Shown: piece after piece, positions 20,345 through 64,000 of the stretch
Numbering within the stretch: the stretch's first letter is position 1
How the letters are laid out: every line of letters starts with the position of its first letter
From: Levilactobacillus tangyuanensis
GTDB taxonomy: Bacteria > Bacillota > Bacilli > Lactobacillales > Lactobacillaceae
DNA: 64,000 nt
NCBI RefSeq assembly: GCF_003946545.1
Contig: NZ_RHOA01000003.1
Location: 186,001-250,000 of the forward strand
Direction of reading: 5' to 3'
Notes under the pieces: model-generated
The model's input: the letters and a program-made list of their open reading frames with translations, nothing else
Databases searched by the model: none
What the model was told of the DNA's origin: nothing
Position numbers and translations under genes: made by a program

Positions 20345-21241
20345 GTGGCAGATCTGACGACTGCGGTGGCTGACTTCGGTCACTATTTAACGGTTGAACA
20401 AGGGTTGGCGGAAAATTCGGTCAAGAGCTATGTTCAGGAGATGACCACTTTCGCTCAATACTTGACCCTGCAAAAGGTGACGACATTCACGGCCGTTGAC
20501 CGTCTGACCATTTTGGCCTACTTGAATCATTTGACCGAGGCGGGGAAGTCCCGTAACTCGGTGATTCATGCCGTGTCGGCCCTACGTAAGTTTTACCGGT
20601 ACCTGGTTCAGACACACCAATTGACGGTGAACCCGATGGCTAACGTGGCGGCGCCCAAGCATGCCCAACATCTGCCGGCCGTTCTGACGGTAGCGGAGGT
20701 TGATCGGCTACTGGCCGCGCCGGATACCTCAAAGAAGCTGGGCCTAAGGGACCGCACGATATTAGAGGTGTTATATGCGACCGGCCTTCGGGTCAGCGAG
20801 CTGGTGCATTTGAAACTGGCCGACCTGCATCTCGAAATGGGCTTGATTCAGACCCTAGGTAAGGGTGACAAGGAACGGATTATTCCGATTGGCGACGTTG
20901 CCGGGGAGTGGATCAACCGTTACCTCCAAGAGGTGCGGCCCAAGCTGTTGAAGCAACGAACGAGTCCCTATCTGTTTTTGAATGCCCACGGGGGTGGCTT
21001 GTCGCGGCAGGCCATCTGGCAGATGATTAAGCGGTATGTGTTGACGGCCGGGATTAAGAAGGACGTGACGCCGCATACGCTACGTCATTCCTTTGCCACG
21101 CACATTCTGGAAAACGGGGCGGACCTGCGGGTGGTTCAGGAATTACTGGGCCACGCTGACATCACGACGACGCAGATCTATACCCATATTTCGAAGCAGC
21201 GGTTAGTCAAGGTGTATGACCAATATCATCCCCGTGCCTAG
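20345..21241 (+). CDS. xerD: Site-specific tyrosine recombinase XerD
   Basis: Tyrosine recombinase of 298 residues that, with XerC, resolves chromosome dimers at dif. SAM-like core-binding domain (1-90), catalytic domain (about 105-298). Catalytic residues visible: Arg in TGLRVSEL, Lys in LGKGDKER, His and Arg in HTLRHSFATH, His in LGHADITTT, and the nucleophile Tyr279 in QIYTH. The GTG at 20345 follows AAGGAGG. Assignment to XerD rather than XerC rests on its neighbours (cvfB, ribT, scpAB) and on a second, XerC-like copy at 49719 next to hslVU. A dif site lies in the same window at 63443. Confidence 0.95.
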   Translation: MADLTTAVADFGHYLTVEQGLAENSVKSYVQEMTTFAQYLTLQKVTTFTAVDRLTILAYLNHLTEAGKSRNSVIHAVSALRKFYRYLVQTHQLTVNPMANVAAPKHAQHLPAVLTVAEVDRLLAAPDTSKKLGLRDRTILEVLYATGLRVSELVHLKLADLHLEMGLIQTLGKGDKERIIPIGDVAGEWINRYLQEVRPKLLKQRTSPYLFLNAHGGGLSRQAIWQMIKRYVLTAGIKKDVTPHTLRHSFATHILENGADLRVVQELLGHADITTTQIYTHISKQRLVKVYDQYHPRA

Positions 21242-47610: not shown

Positions 47611-47620
47611 ATGGTTCGTC

Positions 47621-47657
47621 AACGTTGCCGCCCTCGAAAGAGAACGGCAACGTTTTT
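47621..47657 (+). terminator. Terminator after topA
   Basis: Perfect 10-bp stem AACGTTGCCG/CGGCAACGTT with a run of six T. Confidence 0.92.
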
Positions 47658-47672
47658 TGATCCATCGTCCCA

Positions 47673-47701
47673 CAAAAAAAGCCGACCAAGTTATGGTCGG
47701 C
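47673..47701 (-). terminator. Terminator of the minus-strand cassette
   Basis: GCCGACC/GGTCGGC stem followed, on the minus strand, by seven T. Confidence 0.88.
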
Positions 47702-47710
47702 ATGACGAAC

Positions 47711-48382
47711 TTAGGCTAAATAAGTTTCCGGGTGATCAAAGACCGTTTGCAGGCGTTCAAAGAATTGGCTCACGTGATAACCGTCGGCAACCGCGTGGTG
47801 AATGGTCACGGACACAGGCATTTGCCAGCCATGCTGACCGTCTTCAACGAATTTACCGGCCTGGATCACCGGGAAGAAGGTGTTCAGTGGCCCAAATGGT
47901 AACGGCGTATACGAGGTAAAATGCGTCCAGGGCAGACTACCAATCATATAGGTGTTAGCACTCCGAGGGGCCTTCGGCATCGGGGTATGTTGGTCGCCAT
48001 ACGTTTCCTGGTCGGCCAAATAATTCGCATAAAACTGTTCAAACTGGGCATCATAGGCGGTCCAGAGGCTTGAGATGCTGTGGTCATCCCCATGAAAAAT
48101 CGTGTAGCTAGGGTGTAAGACGTCGAAGTGAACCAGTTCGCCCGCCTCGTTGCGACCTACTCGTAATTCGGGAATTTCCGCGATGACCCGTGACGCGAGA
48201 TAGAGGTAGGCCGGATTAAATTTTAATTGACGAGCGGCCAGCCAGTGCTTGGTGGCCGTCACATCAATCTCAACGTTAATCGTAAAACCGGTAGGCATCA
48301 TCTTGGTAAAGTAATAAAAACTCTCACGCCGTGACCAAGTTGCTTGATCGATCGGGTGACTCGTCGTATTTAATTCTGTCAT
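47711..48382 (-). CDS. Chloramphenicol acetyltransferase-like acyltransferase (CatA family)
   Basis: A protein of 223 residues with the CAT fold. The catalytic His is in TIHHAVADGYHVSQFF (the HHxxxDG signature, about residue 194). Conserved start region RRESFYYFTKMMPTGF and the LPWTHFTSY segment match type A CAT relatives. Lactobacilli carry many such chromosomal homologues, and the true acyl acceptor is unknown; chloramphenicol resistance should not be assumed. Start 48382 with GGAGACT ahead. It is the last gene of a minus-strand cassette behind the broken GIY-YIG gene and the DUF2087 regulator. Confidence 0.85.
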   Translation of the reverse strand: MTELNTTSHPIDQATWSRRESFYYFTKMMPTGFTINVEIDVTATKHWLAARQLKFNPAYLYLASRVIAEIPELRVGRNEAGELVHFDVLHPSYTIFHGDDHSISSLWTAYDAQFEQFYANYLADQETYGDQHTPMPKAPRSANTYMIGSLPWTHFTSYTPLPFGPLNTFFPVIQAGKFVEDGQHGWQMPVSVTIHHAVADGYHVSQFFERLQTVFDHPETYLA

Positions 48383-48393
48383 GTTCAGTCTCC

Positions 48394-48726
48394 TTATGAG
48401 GGGTGATTATAGCTGGGTTGCTTCAAGGTTAACCACTTGGCCTTAACGTCTTTCATCGCCTGACGCAGGTTGAGGACCTCACTGGTGTCTTGTTCCCACA
48501 AGACCTGATAACTAAATGCCGCGGCGCCAAGTTCGTCCCAGTCCCGTTGTAGATCGGTGTCATGGTAAAAATGCCCGTTCAAATTGGTTTGGTAATAACC
48601 CCAACGATTGTGAATGTTGGACACAACATCGATAAACGTCTAACCATTTTTGGTATTCTTAATTTCGATAACGCCATAGAAGGTTGGCGTGGCCTTGTAT
48701 TGTTGAAGCAATTCTTTTCGATTCAT
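48394..48726 (-). pseudogene. GIY-YIG nuclease family protein, interrupted by an in-frame TAG
   Basis: From the minus-strand ATG at 48726 the frame reads MNRKELLQQYKATPTFYGVI, then a TAG at 48642-48640 (codon 29, after NTKNG), then continues TFIDVVSNIHNRWGYYQTNL to the stop at 48394. Read through, it is 110 residues and resembles the short GIY-YIG-type proteins of lactobacilli, with the YGV and NRW..YYQ core. AAGGAG before the ATG overlaps the stop of the regulator, showing an original coupled gene. A GTG at 48624 gives a 76-residue fragment. One base change (for example AAG to TAG) explains the break. Confidence 0.75.
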
Positions 48727-48729
48727 AAT

Positions 48730-49482
48730 TTACTCCTTGTAATCTGGGTTCCGCCAATAGTCACTGCCATCGGCCTTTCGTTGCAGAAAGTCATAGTCAA
48801 TCAAATAACGCCGTAACATCGGATAGTCCGCGTAGACTGGCTTGAGCACGGCCGTTAAGTCTCGTTCCGTGTAGTGCCGGTCAACGGGGATAAGGCTCAT
48901 CACTTGCTTCAGAACCGCCAAAATAGCCTTCTGTGATTTAGGCCACCGCTTTAACCGCAGCGGGTCGGTCGAGATAAAGTATTTCTGGACAATTGTCTGA
49001 AACTCAGTCGTGGTGATAGCGAAACGATCATCAACCGGTCCGGTCTGCTCGGGCAAATCAACCAGGGCATCCGGTACGGGTGTTTGGTTAAACACGCGTT
49101 CATAGATCGCCAGGTACAGCTTGGCCTGCTTGGCCTTCTCGCGAAAGGTGAATTTTTGATGACGCACGGTTGCGGCAGCGACGCCAGTTTCCCCAGCAAT
49201 GGTGGCGTCCTTTTCCCCACGAGCAAAGGCCATGAGGAGCGAGCGTTGTTTAGTCGTCAGGGTATTATACTTGCTGTCGGTTTGAATCAGGTCATTGATG
49301 GCATCCGGGTGGGCCTGGGCAACGTGTTGCCGAATCATTTCAGCGGCCGGATAGAACTTTCCTTCAACAGGAAAGACCTCATCCTTGGCAAATACCGTGT
49401 CACAGTAATGGCAAACATAATCGGTGTCGGTCTGGTGCCAGCCTTGTTCAATTTCGGTTAAGGAACGTTCTAATGAGGACAT
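48730..49482 (-). CDS. DUF2087 domain transcriptional regulator with LuxR-like HTH
   Basis: A protein of 250 residues. The N-terminus has a zinc-ribbon-like pair (CHYCDTVF with a later HVAQAH). A LuxR-like helix-turn-helix follows (about 72-110, TTKQRSLLMAFARGEKDATI, then ATVRHQKF). The C-terminus (about 165-250) is a DUF2087 domain (LKRWPKSQKAILAVL, YTERDLTAVLKPVYADYPMLRRYLIDYDFLQRK). The signal it senses is unknown. Start 49482 follows GGAGGG. A consensus promoter lies upstream, and it heads the cassette with the GIY-YIG and CAT-like genes. Confidence 0.87.
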   Translation of the reverse strand: MSSLERSLTEIEQGWHQTDTDYVCHYCDTVFAKDEVFPVEGKFYPAAEMIRQHVAQAHPDAINDLIQTDSKYNTLTTKQRSLLMAFARGEKDATIAGETGVAAATVRHQKFTFREKAKQAKLYLAIYERVFNQTPVPDALVDLPEQTGPVDDRFAITTTEFQTIVQKYFISTDPLRLKRWPKSQKAILAVLKQVMSLIPVDRHYTERDLTAVLKPVYADYPMLRRYLIDYDFLQRKADGSDYWRNPDYKE

Positions 49483-49503
49483 GTTTATCCCTCCAATGAA
49501 ATT

Positions 49504-49532
49504 ATTCTACAAACGTTTACTGATTCTGTCAA
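49504..49532 (-). promoter_or_regulatory. Consensus promoter of the DUF2087-regulator cassette
   Basis: Minus strand: TTGACA (49532-49527), exactly 17 bases, TAGAAT (49509-49504). The spacer contains AAACGTTT, a partial cre-like or autoregulatory palindrome. Confidence 0.85.
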
Positions 49533-49560
49533 CACATTTCAAAAATTATTGGTTTATCGT

Positions 49561-49598
49561 TGCCAGTCGATCGCCACCAATTTGGTGGCAGATTGGCA
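49561..49598. repeat. Long interrupted inverted repeat upstream of xerC
   Basis: Outer arms TGCCAGTC (49561-49568) and GATTGGCA (49591-49598), inner arms GCCACCAA (49573-49580) and TTGGTGGC (49582-49589) around one base. Sixteen base pairs, one of them G-T. No T run follows, so it is not itself a terminator. Confidence 0.6.
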
Positions 49599-49628
49599 GG
49601 GATTCGACTGAGGTTGCGCTTAGGTTGG

Positions 49629-49657
49629 CCTGGTGACGAGCCACTAGGGAGTTTTTT
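49629..49657 (+). terminator. Terminator-like hairpin upstream of xerC
   Basis: CCTGGTG pairs with CACTAGG (one G-T pair) over ACGAGC, followed by GAG and six T. No gene ends here on the + strand, so it may end a short RNA or attenuate xerC. Confidence 0.5.
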
Positions 49658-49718
49658 GATGAGTTAATTGAGTTTTAGAAAAGCGTTTGCTAGCATTAAC
49701 AGGGCAGGAGGTGTTGTC

Positions 49719-50666
49719 GTGGACAAACAAGTTGAACAATTTATCACGTATCTCAGCGGTGAGCGGCAGTACTCTCCGGAAACGGTCAAGGCCTATCGCG
49801 AGGATCTGGCCGAATTCGACCAATTTCTGGCGGATAATGGCGGGCGTAAGCCCTGGGCGGACATCGACCAGCTCGATGTCGAGGTCTACTTGAGCGACCT
49901 GTACGACCGGCATTATGCCCGGACGACCATCGCCCGAAAGCTCTCAACATTACGATCGTTATATAACTTTCTCATCAGCAATGGCCTGGCGAAGGACGAT
50001 CCATTTGCCTACGTCCAGCTCAAGCATCATCAGAACCATTTGCCCCGATTCTTCTATGAACGAGAAATGACGGCTCTGTTTGTGGCAGCCGCGGCAAATC
50101 CCAACGACCAGTTGGCCACCCGCGACTCTGCCCTACTGGAAGTTCTGTATGGGACGGGCATTCGGGTCAGCGAGTGTGTCAATCTCACTTTGACCGACGT
50201 TGATTTCGATAACCGGATCATGCTGATTCACGGGAAGGGGAACAAGGAACGGTATGTGCCGTTCGGCCACTATGCCAGCGATGCGTTACAAGCCTACTTC
50301 AATGCGGCGCGTAGCCCAATCATGGCCCAAAATGACCAGGCTCATGACTTCGTCTTCATCAACTATCGTGGCGAACAATTGACCTCGGCGGGTGTCACCT
50401 ATCTCCTCAATCAAATCATTCAGCGGAGCACGTTAACCACGGACATTCATCCCCATATGCTCCGTCACACCTTTGCCACACACCTCTTGAATCGAGGGGC
50501 CGACCTGCGTTCCGTTCAAGAATTACTCGGCCACAGCAGCCTCTCGACCACCCAAATTTATACCCACGTTACCCGAGAACATTTACAACGGGACTATCGC
50601 AAGTTTTTCCCGCGGGCCACACAGGGCCACTCGGATTCCTCATCAACTAAAAAGGAGCAAAAATAA
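49719..50666 (+). CDS. xerC: Site-specific tyrosine recombinase XerC (CodV)
   Basis: Partner of XerD in chromosome dimer resolution, 315 residues. Core-binding domain with [16 protein letters not shown]; catalytic residues Arg in TGIRVSEC, Lys in HGKGNKER, His/Arg in [10 protein letters not shown], His in LGHSSLSTT and nucleophile Tyr281 in QIYTH. A Ser/Lys-rich tail of about 15 residues extends past the usual end. The GTG at 49719 follows AGGAGG. Position directly before hslV-hslU is the codV-clpQ-clpY order of Bacillus, which supports XerC. Confidence 0.94.
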
Positions 50667-63408: not shown

Positions 63409-63442
63409 GTGGTTTCAGGGGGCTTTCCGTTTTCTGAGCACT

Positions 63443-63470
63443 GCTTTCGATAATATATATTATGTAAAGT
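63443..63470 (+). other. dif site for XerCD chromosome dimer resolution
   Basis: 28 bases: XerC arm GCTTTCGATAA, six-base centre TATATA, XerD arm TTATGTAAAGT. The centre and the XerD arm match the B. subtilis dif at all but one base, and the XerC arm is the more divergent one, as usual. It lies outside any gene, after a strong terminator, in a window that also encodes XerC and XerD. Confidence 0.9.
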
Positions 63471-64000
63471 AGAATATCTTTTCGATTAAGACTTGAGGAA
63501 TAACCATGCCCTTTCTTTTATCGACGTCGATAATCTTTGCCTCGTAACTTATGAGAATATGCTACTAAAAATATCAATTCAGTTAACCGGCAAGTCGCTG
63601 ACGACATGCACGTGTCTGCCGATTACGCTGCTCAGCAGCTAGTTTGGTTGCCGCTCACTAAACTAGCTCGCAGACTTACCAACCACATTCGTCTGATTGC
63701 TGCCAATTTAGTTTAATTTTAACTAAGCGCTGCCGTCACGACTGAATGCGGTCAGCAAACCTATTCACCGGTTAAAGCCAGACAAAATCGGTATTTTGCA
63801 GGCGGATTCTCCGTTAATTTCATGGTCAGGTCTCCGTCTAAAGCCTGAACGTGTGCTTAGAATCAACGTCTAAAATCACGTTATGCCAGTCGGTTCTGAT
63901 ATCACTTGACTCTAGGTTATTGCTGTCGGTTCTTAAACTCAAGTGCCAGACAAACACAGATTGCCAATTAGGGATATTAGACAGGATTTGCTGACTAGCT
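63471..64000. other. Gene-free region next to dif
   Basis: About 530 bases without a credible reading frame on either strand. It contains a perfect 9-bp inverted repeat AGCTAGTTT (63637-63645) / AAACTAGCT (63660-63668), a 7-bp repeat CACTTGA (63903-63909) / TCAAGTG (63939-63945), and the repeated string GTCGGTTCT (63889 and 63925 regions). No RNA family or promoter is recognised. Confidence 0.6.

Follow-up and report, generated by a model that had tools for sequence, protein, structure and literature searches.

Streptococci pose a question that is still open: how does a bacterium come to exchange its dimer-resolution machine for one with a different site and a different enzyme? The locus described here raises it for Levilactobacillus. 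The window, the whole stretch of Levilactobacillus tangyuanensis DNA that was analysed, comprises 64,000 nucleotides (bases 186001–250000 of contig C23, 263,295 bp) and carries near its end a 28-mer resembling the XerC/XerD recombination site dif. Is this 28-mer a real dif at the replication terminus, and is it the only dimer-resolution site there?

A dif site at the terminus

The site (63443–63470, plus strand) consists of a XerC arm GCTTTCGATAA, a TATATA centre and a XerD arm TTATGTAAAGT. The 11-6-11 layout proposed by the sequence-only reading was borne out by the window letters, as was its claim of a single-base difference from the Bacillus subtilis dif over the XerD arm and centre (B. subtilis dif being ACTTCCTAGAATATATATTATGTAAACT in the available text of PMC3025954). 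A genome-wide search for the 28-mer, which the same reading had proposed as a check, returned a single copy and no equal or better one elsewhere in the 2.19-Mb, 35-contig draft genome. One match was obtained at ≤3 mismatches (reversed-pattern control, 0), and the 15-base core TATATATTATGTAAA also occurred once at ≤1 mismatch. Exactly one equivalent of the 28-mer at ≤3 mismatches was present in 34 of 35 Levilactobacillus genomes, with no reversed-control match in any of the 35. The remaining genome, G025, gave no match at this threshold or with a relaxed pattern, which either divergence of the site or a break between contigs would explain.

When flanks from 30 of the 34 dif-bearing genomes were aligned, 33 columns proved conserved, each identical in 26–30 flanks compared to 10–26 for the columns beyond. 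The inner 28 columns are biased, since the loci were found using the 28-mer itself; the outer CT and AGA are unbiased. The conserved dif unit (CT-28mer-AGA, 63441–63473, plus strand) is longer than 28 bp, correcting the extent first given. Single copy, genus-wide presence and column conservation together ruled out a chance AT-rich palindrome as the source of the 28-mer.

The terminus location claimed for the site was upheld by GC skew and gene strand, both of which switch at dif. Measured in 10-kb steps along the contig, skew was +0.03 to +0.11 until ~32 kb before dif, stayed close to zero for the remaining 32 kb, and was −0.08 to −0.13 immediately past the site. Non-overlapping open frames of ≥150 codons numbered 162 plus and 26 minus before dif, against 2 plus and 9 minus after. 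The skew sign also changed at dif in two near-complete relatives, each sampled at 20 stretches of 10 kb. In L. brevis CD0817 (G030) it was positive in 14/14 stretches before dif and negative in 6/6 after; the corresponding values for G019 were 11/11 and 9/9. Since dnaA lies on a contig other than that of dif in the window genome, distances from dnaA were taken from G005, G019 and L. brevis CD0817 only (G032 and G034 were left out), placing dif at 0.505, 0.524 and 0.697 of the contig, respectively. A position opposite oriC, the other part of the proposed check, therefore holds for G005 and G019 but not for L. brevis CD0817. The replichores of L. brevis CD0817 are thus very unequal, with dif at the skew switch and away from the midpoint. 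Because skew in this genome changes sign at dif (0.697), dif tracks the skew switch even far from the midpoint. Across window positions ~31000–63443 skew is near zero with most genes still on the plus strand, and in both G019 and L. brevis CD0817 the stretches sampled immediately ahead of dif likewise gave values near zero. Replication forks may frequently converge on this flank of dif.

Both cognate recombinases are encoded on the plus strand of the window. XerD (20345–21241, 298 aa, upstream of scpA and scpB) scored 382.3 bits against TIGR02225 (cut-off 329.6), and XerC (49668–50666, 332 aa as listed from a provisional TTG start, upstream of hslV and hslU) scored 363.1 bits against TIGR02224 (cut-off 335.15). 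Their distances from dif, about 42–43 and 13–14 kb, agree with the 43 and 14 kb reported earlier. The R, K, HxLR, H and Y motifs, which we take to be the usual catalytic motifs of such recombinases, are all visible in the two sequences, and both genes look intact. The sequence-only reading had also considered the clustering of xerC, xerD, scpAB, topA, parEC and dif notable. The genes are indeed present: ScpB, TopA, ParE and ParC each scored above a NCBIfam cut-off, and ScpA matched five ScpA models strongly, yet below or near their cut-offs. Their clustering is ordinary, because in a hand-collated set of 28 genomes among the matches listed, restricted to those in which dif and both recombinase genes share a contig, xerC lay 11–108 kb and xerD 31–151 kb from dif. 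Between topA and xerC, where trmFO usually lies in Firmicutes, the frame list holds no long plus-strand frame of trmFO size (47611–49667). With a single conserved copy at the skew switch and apparently intact xerC and xerD, the 28-mer is almost certainly a real, classical XerC/XerD dif.

xerS and a conserved palindrome beside dif

A third recombinase gene lies just beyond the window edge, outside the view of the sequence-only reading. This gene, xerS (C23:250546–251610, 546–1610 bases past window position 64000), starts ~1.1 kb after dif and encodes a 354 aa protein scoring 466 bits against NF003462 (cut-off 267), whose best matches, at 98%, come from Levilactobacillus. The alignment of 30 dif flanks revealed a second conserved block ahead of it, a palindrome here termed the S-site: CTACTTTCATTAAAA-CAAATA-TTTTAAAGATAGTAG (C23:250421–250456, 421–456 bases past window position 64000). 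It lies on the same strand as dif, 0.98 kb downstream and likewise outside the window, with the xerS start codon 89 bp past it. The general design, CTACTTTCATTAAAA-N6-TTTTAAAGATAGTAG, is near-symmetric, its 15-bp arms meeting in AAAA-N6-TTTT. A further block near TCTCCATCTAAAGTCTGAACGTGTGCTTAGAATCAACGTC (window ~63831–63877) is also conserved in the genus alignment; it falls between the two sites, in a region that has no gene of appreciable size.

All 30 Levilactobacillus flanks carried the S-site on the strand of dif, at a distance of 635–1056 bp from it. Arm mismatches were ≤3 of 30 in 29 flanks, and 8 in L. senmaizukei (G022). Arm columns were mostly identical in 28–30 of 30 flanks (21 for three right-arm columns), compared to 23–25 for the centre, which took eight different sequences. 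This pattern fits arms bound by protein and a centre that would need only to match its sister copy. The strict palindrome occurred once in the 263-kb contig, in 4/1580 loci shuffled by 2-base blocks, and in 0/39 dif loci of XerS-negative genomes. Three control loci proved to be XerS-positive, and two of these had the strict palindrome.

Displacement of xerS to 4–23 kb from dif was seen in six genomes of the genus: L. acidifarinae, Ca. L. faecigallinarum, L. namurensis, G019, L. spicheri and L. zymae. In these the S-site is still near dif, with other centres. A changed centre is not an exclusive sign of displacement, as L. senmaizukei also has another centre though its xerS is adjacent. IMEX-like integration at the S-site, considered as the cause of displacement in the L. 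zymae/L. namurensis group, was unsupported: no integrase was seen among ten proteins scanned, seven from the L. zymae insert and three from G019, which make up part of the genes there, and a search of L. zymae gave no second S-site at the xerS end. The L. zymae insert separates S-site and xerS by ~14.7 kb (L329, 1870–16600). One of its proteins matches DUF2399 and, weakly and below cut-off, the C-terminus of JetD of the Wadjet system.

XerS, S-sites and XerCD across Lactobacillaceae

XerS was detected in 94 of 301 sampled genomes and 14 of 40 genera. Three types of S-site arms were distinguished: type A, CATTAAAA-N6-TTTTAATG; type B, AACTTAATAAAA-N6-TTTTATTAAGTT; and type C, GTTGTTAAAA-N6-TTTTAACAAC. 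Type A at ≤1 mismatch was found in 52/94 XerS-positive versus 14/207 XerS-negative genomes among the matches listed, and the 21 genomes with exact matches among those listed were all XerS-positive. Type B at ≤3 mismatches was found in 26/94 versus 5/207, and at ≤2 mismatches in 23 genomes, all XerS-positive. These splits were collated by hand. Type C, searched for in g25 loci, was present in 6/6.

By hand count among the matches listed, and with the matches of G160 and G236 left out as chance, 78 of the 94 XerS-positive genomes carry an S-site. Weaker members of this count are g6 genomes (S-site 1.5–18 kb from xerS), most Secundilactobacillus (g20) genomes (5–16 kb), G246 and G290 (S-site and xerS on separate contigs) and G315 (a 3-mismatch match 64 kb away). 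The site was not found in the other 16: G022 (degenerate), G157, G109, G160, G241, G080 (whose xerS is cut by the contig start), five g12 genomes, G117, G055, G064, G236 and G307. Many genomes place the S-site ~80–125 bp before the xerS start, usually ~90–100 bp. Streptococcal-type loci carry the difSL core in the same place, 74–149 bp before xerS in 13/13 (approximate, from match start). The centre CTATAA of several g6, g22 and g37 S-sites is also seen in difSL.

The S-site and dif appear to have separate histories. In a tree of 93 XerS proteins (11 of 79 loci, missed by the motif filter, were left out, and several genomes entered twice under handle and name), Companilactobacillus was placed twice among Levilactobacillus, in groups with support of 0.863 and 0.98. 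L. kribbianus (G243) joined the Companilactobacillus/Levilactobacillus groups (0.998), apart from other Lentilactobacillus. Its S-site is type A, compared to type B in the other 11 of 12 Lentilactobacillus sampled, and its dif 28-mer is that of other Lentilactobacillus. Judged from these sequences, S-site type follows xerS lineage and dif follows species. We infer that, within the Lactobacillaceae, xerS and its S-site have passed from one genus to another on at least a few occasions.

The presence of XerC and XerD was assessed at E 1e-60 in 57 of the 94 XerS-positive genomes and in 23 XerS-negative genomes. Both proteins were present in 38/57, and a dif candidate was identified in every one of these 38. 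In 33 it matched the core at ≤1 mismatch among the matches listed, a few of which may be chance; the other five candidates were diverged, two of them at 3 mismatches. Both were absent at E 1e-60 from six (Dellaglioa algida (G064), Bombilactobacillus apium (G110), G117, G146, G277 and G304), in which a threshold of 1e-10 yielded only XerS or weaker integrase-like scores. The dif core at ≤1 mismatch was absent from all six among the matches listed, and the S-site was found in four (not in G064 or G117). A relaxed dif pattern gave one 3-mismatch match each in G110 and G304, taken as chance.

The 13 XerS-positive genomes of g6, probably Lactobacillus proper, all keep one XerC-like protein (219–309 bits), and two have weak XerD-like matches with an internal stop. 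Among the matches listed, eight of the 13 had no dif core and five had one match. The 23 XerS-negative genomes comprised 19 with both XerC and XerD, one with one, and three with neither. These three (G161, G184 and G206, all g9) also had no dif core at ≤1 mismatch among the matches listed. Six of the 19 (G054, G090, G098, G181, G239 and G297) likewise showed no core at ≤1 mismatch among the matches listed; the core pattern alone therefore misses some dif sites, and an absent pattern is no proof of dif loss. Four stages, XerCD only, both systems, XerC with XerS, and XerS only, seem to coexist within one family.

Two proposed dimer-resolution systems and their known counterparts

We favour, with a probability of roughly three in four, the reading that the Levilactobacillus terminus holds an XerCD dif and, 0.6–1.1 kb away, a complete single-recombinase XerS/S-site module, that both would resolve dimers, and that XerCD loss has been repeated. 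Extended with similar confidence to several other Lactobacillaceae genera, this reading posits two complete, separately inherited systems, XerCD/dif and an XerS/S-site module that moves horizontally, with their sites ~1 kb from each other. Together they would be an intermediate stage still alive today, with XerCD and dif having disappeared from it more than once; the S-site would be the XerS target missing for lactobacilli. XerS action on the S-site, dimer resolution by both systems, service of both by FtsK, and the order of gains and losses are all inferred from sequence comparison.

Once two sister chromosomes have become joined as a dimer, translocation by FtsK would bring the terminus to the septum. 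There, XerC and XerD would recombine two dif copies to give two monomers or, alternatively, XerS bound to both arms would recombine two S-site copies with the same outcome. Transfer of xerS with its S-site between genera, settling beside dif, would have left two systems together. Loss of XerC, XerD and dif would then be possible and apparently happened repeatedly, leaving XerS-only lineages like the streptococci. With dif and the S-site this close together, one could ask which of the two systems is active, whether there is competition between them and whether FtsK acts for both.

An unlikely alternative is that only XerCD/dif resolves dimers in Levilactobacillus, with XerS and the S-site a conserved passenger module doing another job, such as one that concerns mobile DNA in the terminus region. 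In its favour, tyrosine recombinases commonly act for mobile DNA, and all components of XerCD/dif are conserved and intact in this genus. However, 6/57 XerS-positive genomes are without XerC and XerD at E 1e-60, and because such XerS-only relatives exist, XerS can apparently serve alone. The module also remains at the terminus, its S-site kept in 30/30 flanks, and the ten proteins scanned from two displaced-xerS genomes, part of the genes there, included no integrase.

That the S-site serves xerS as a terminator or regulatory palindrome, with no role in recombination, is quite improbable. Its position ~80–125 bp before the xerS start in many genomes could be that of an operator, but the site stays near dif in the six Levilactobacillus genomes whose xerS is 4–23 kb off. 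The 6-bp spacing is constant, the arms vary less than the centre, layout and place are the same as in streptococcal difSL, and no T-run follows the S-site in the window genome. Least credible is a completed XerS takeover with the 28-mer as a disused relic: the existence of relatives with XerS alone shows that such a takeover can run to its end, but the 33 near-invariant dif columns in 30 flanks, the intact XerC and XerD motifs, and the loss of dif along with that of both XerC and XerD argue against it.

The preferred two-system arrangement combines features of two known ones. Like B. subtilis and other Firmicutes XerCD/dif, it has a single-copy 11-6-11 site at the terminus and two recombinases, with one base of difference over the centre and XerD arm. 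It differs in its diverged XerC arm, its nearly palindromic unit (CTACTTT ... AAAGTAG) and the xerS beside dif. The second counterpart is the XerS/difSL system of streptococci and lactococci, described in the available text of PMC5357621 and PMC2731167. Shared features are a XerS above the equivalog cut-off (354 aa here, about 356 aa there), a site just upstream of the gene, the AAAA-centre-TTTT core and the terminus location. The arms differ in sequence (CTTTCCGAAAAA / TTTTCTTGAAA in difSL, CTACTTTCATTAAAA / TTTTAAAGATAGTAG here), and those of the S-site are nearly equal in length, whereas the 31-bp difSL, per the accessible portion of PMC5357621, has unequal arms. XerS is the sole Xer recombinase in that system, a state also seen among relatives, for instance Dellaglioa algida and Bombilactobacillus apium, whereas XerC, XerD and dif are also present here.

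In the open-access literature we found no paper on a XerS site in lactobacilli. The available text of PMC5345009 reports that L. delbrueckii ssp. bulgaricus has dif in two inverted copies and, like that of PMC7955673, has no bearing on the XerS site. A close precedent is L. helveticus DPC 4571, in which Kono et al. 2011 (PMC3025954), in the portion available, reported xerS alongside xerC and xerD and near the skew switch, and suggested a possible evolutionary intermediate via horizontal transfer. Neither dif nor a XerS site was found in that genome according to the same portion. In Levilactobacillus, by contrast, both sites are present, and the candidate XerS site defined here across many genera is proposed as the one that could not be found in L. 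helveticus.
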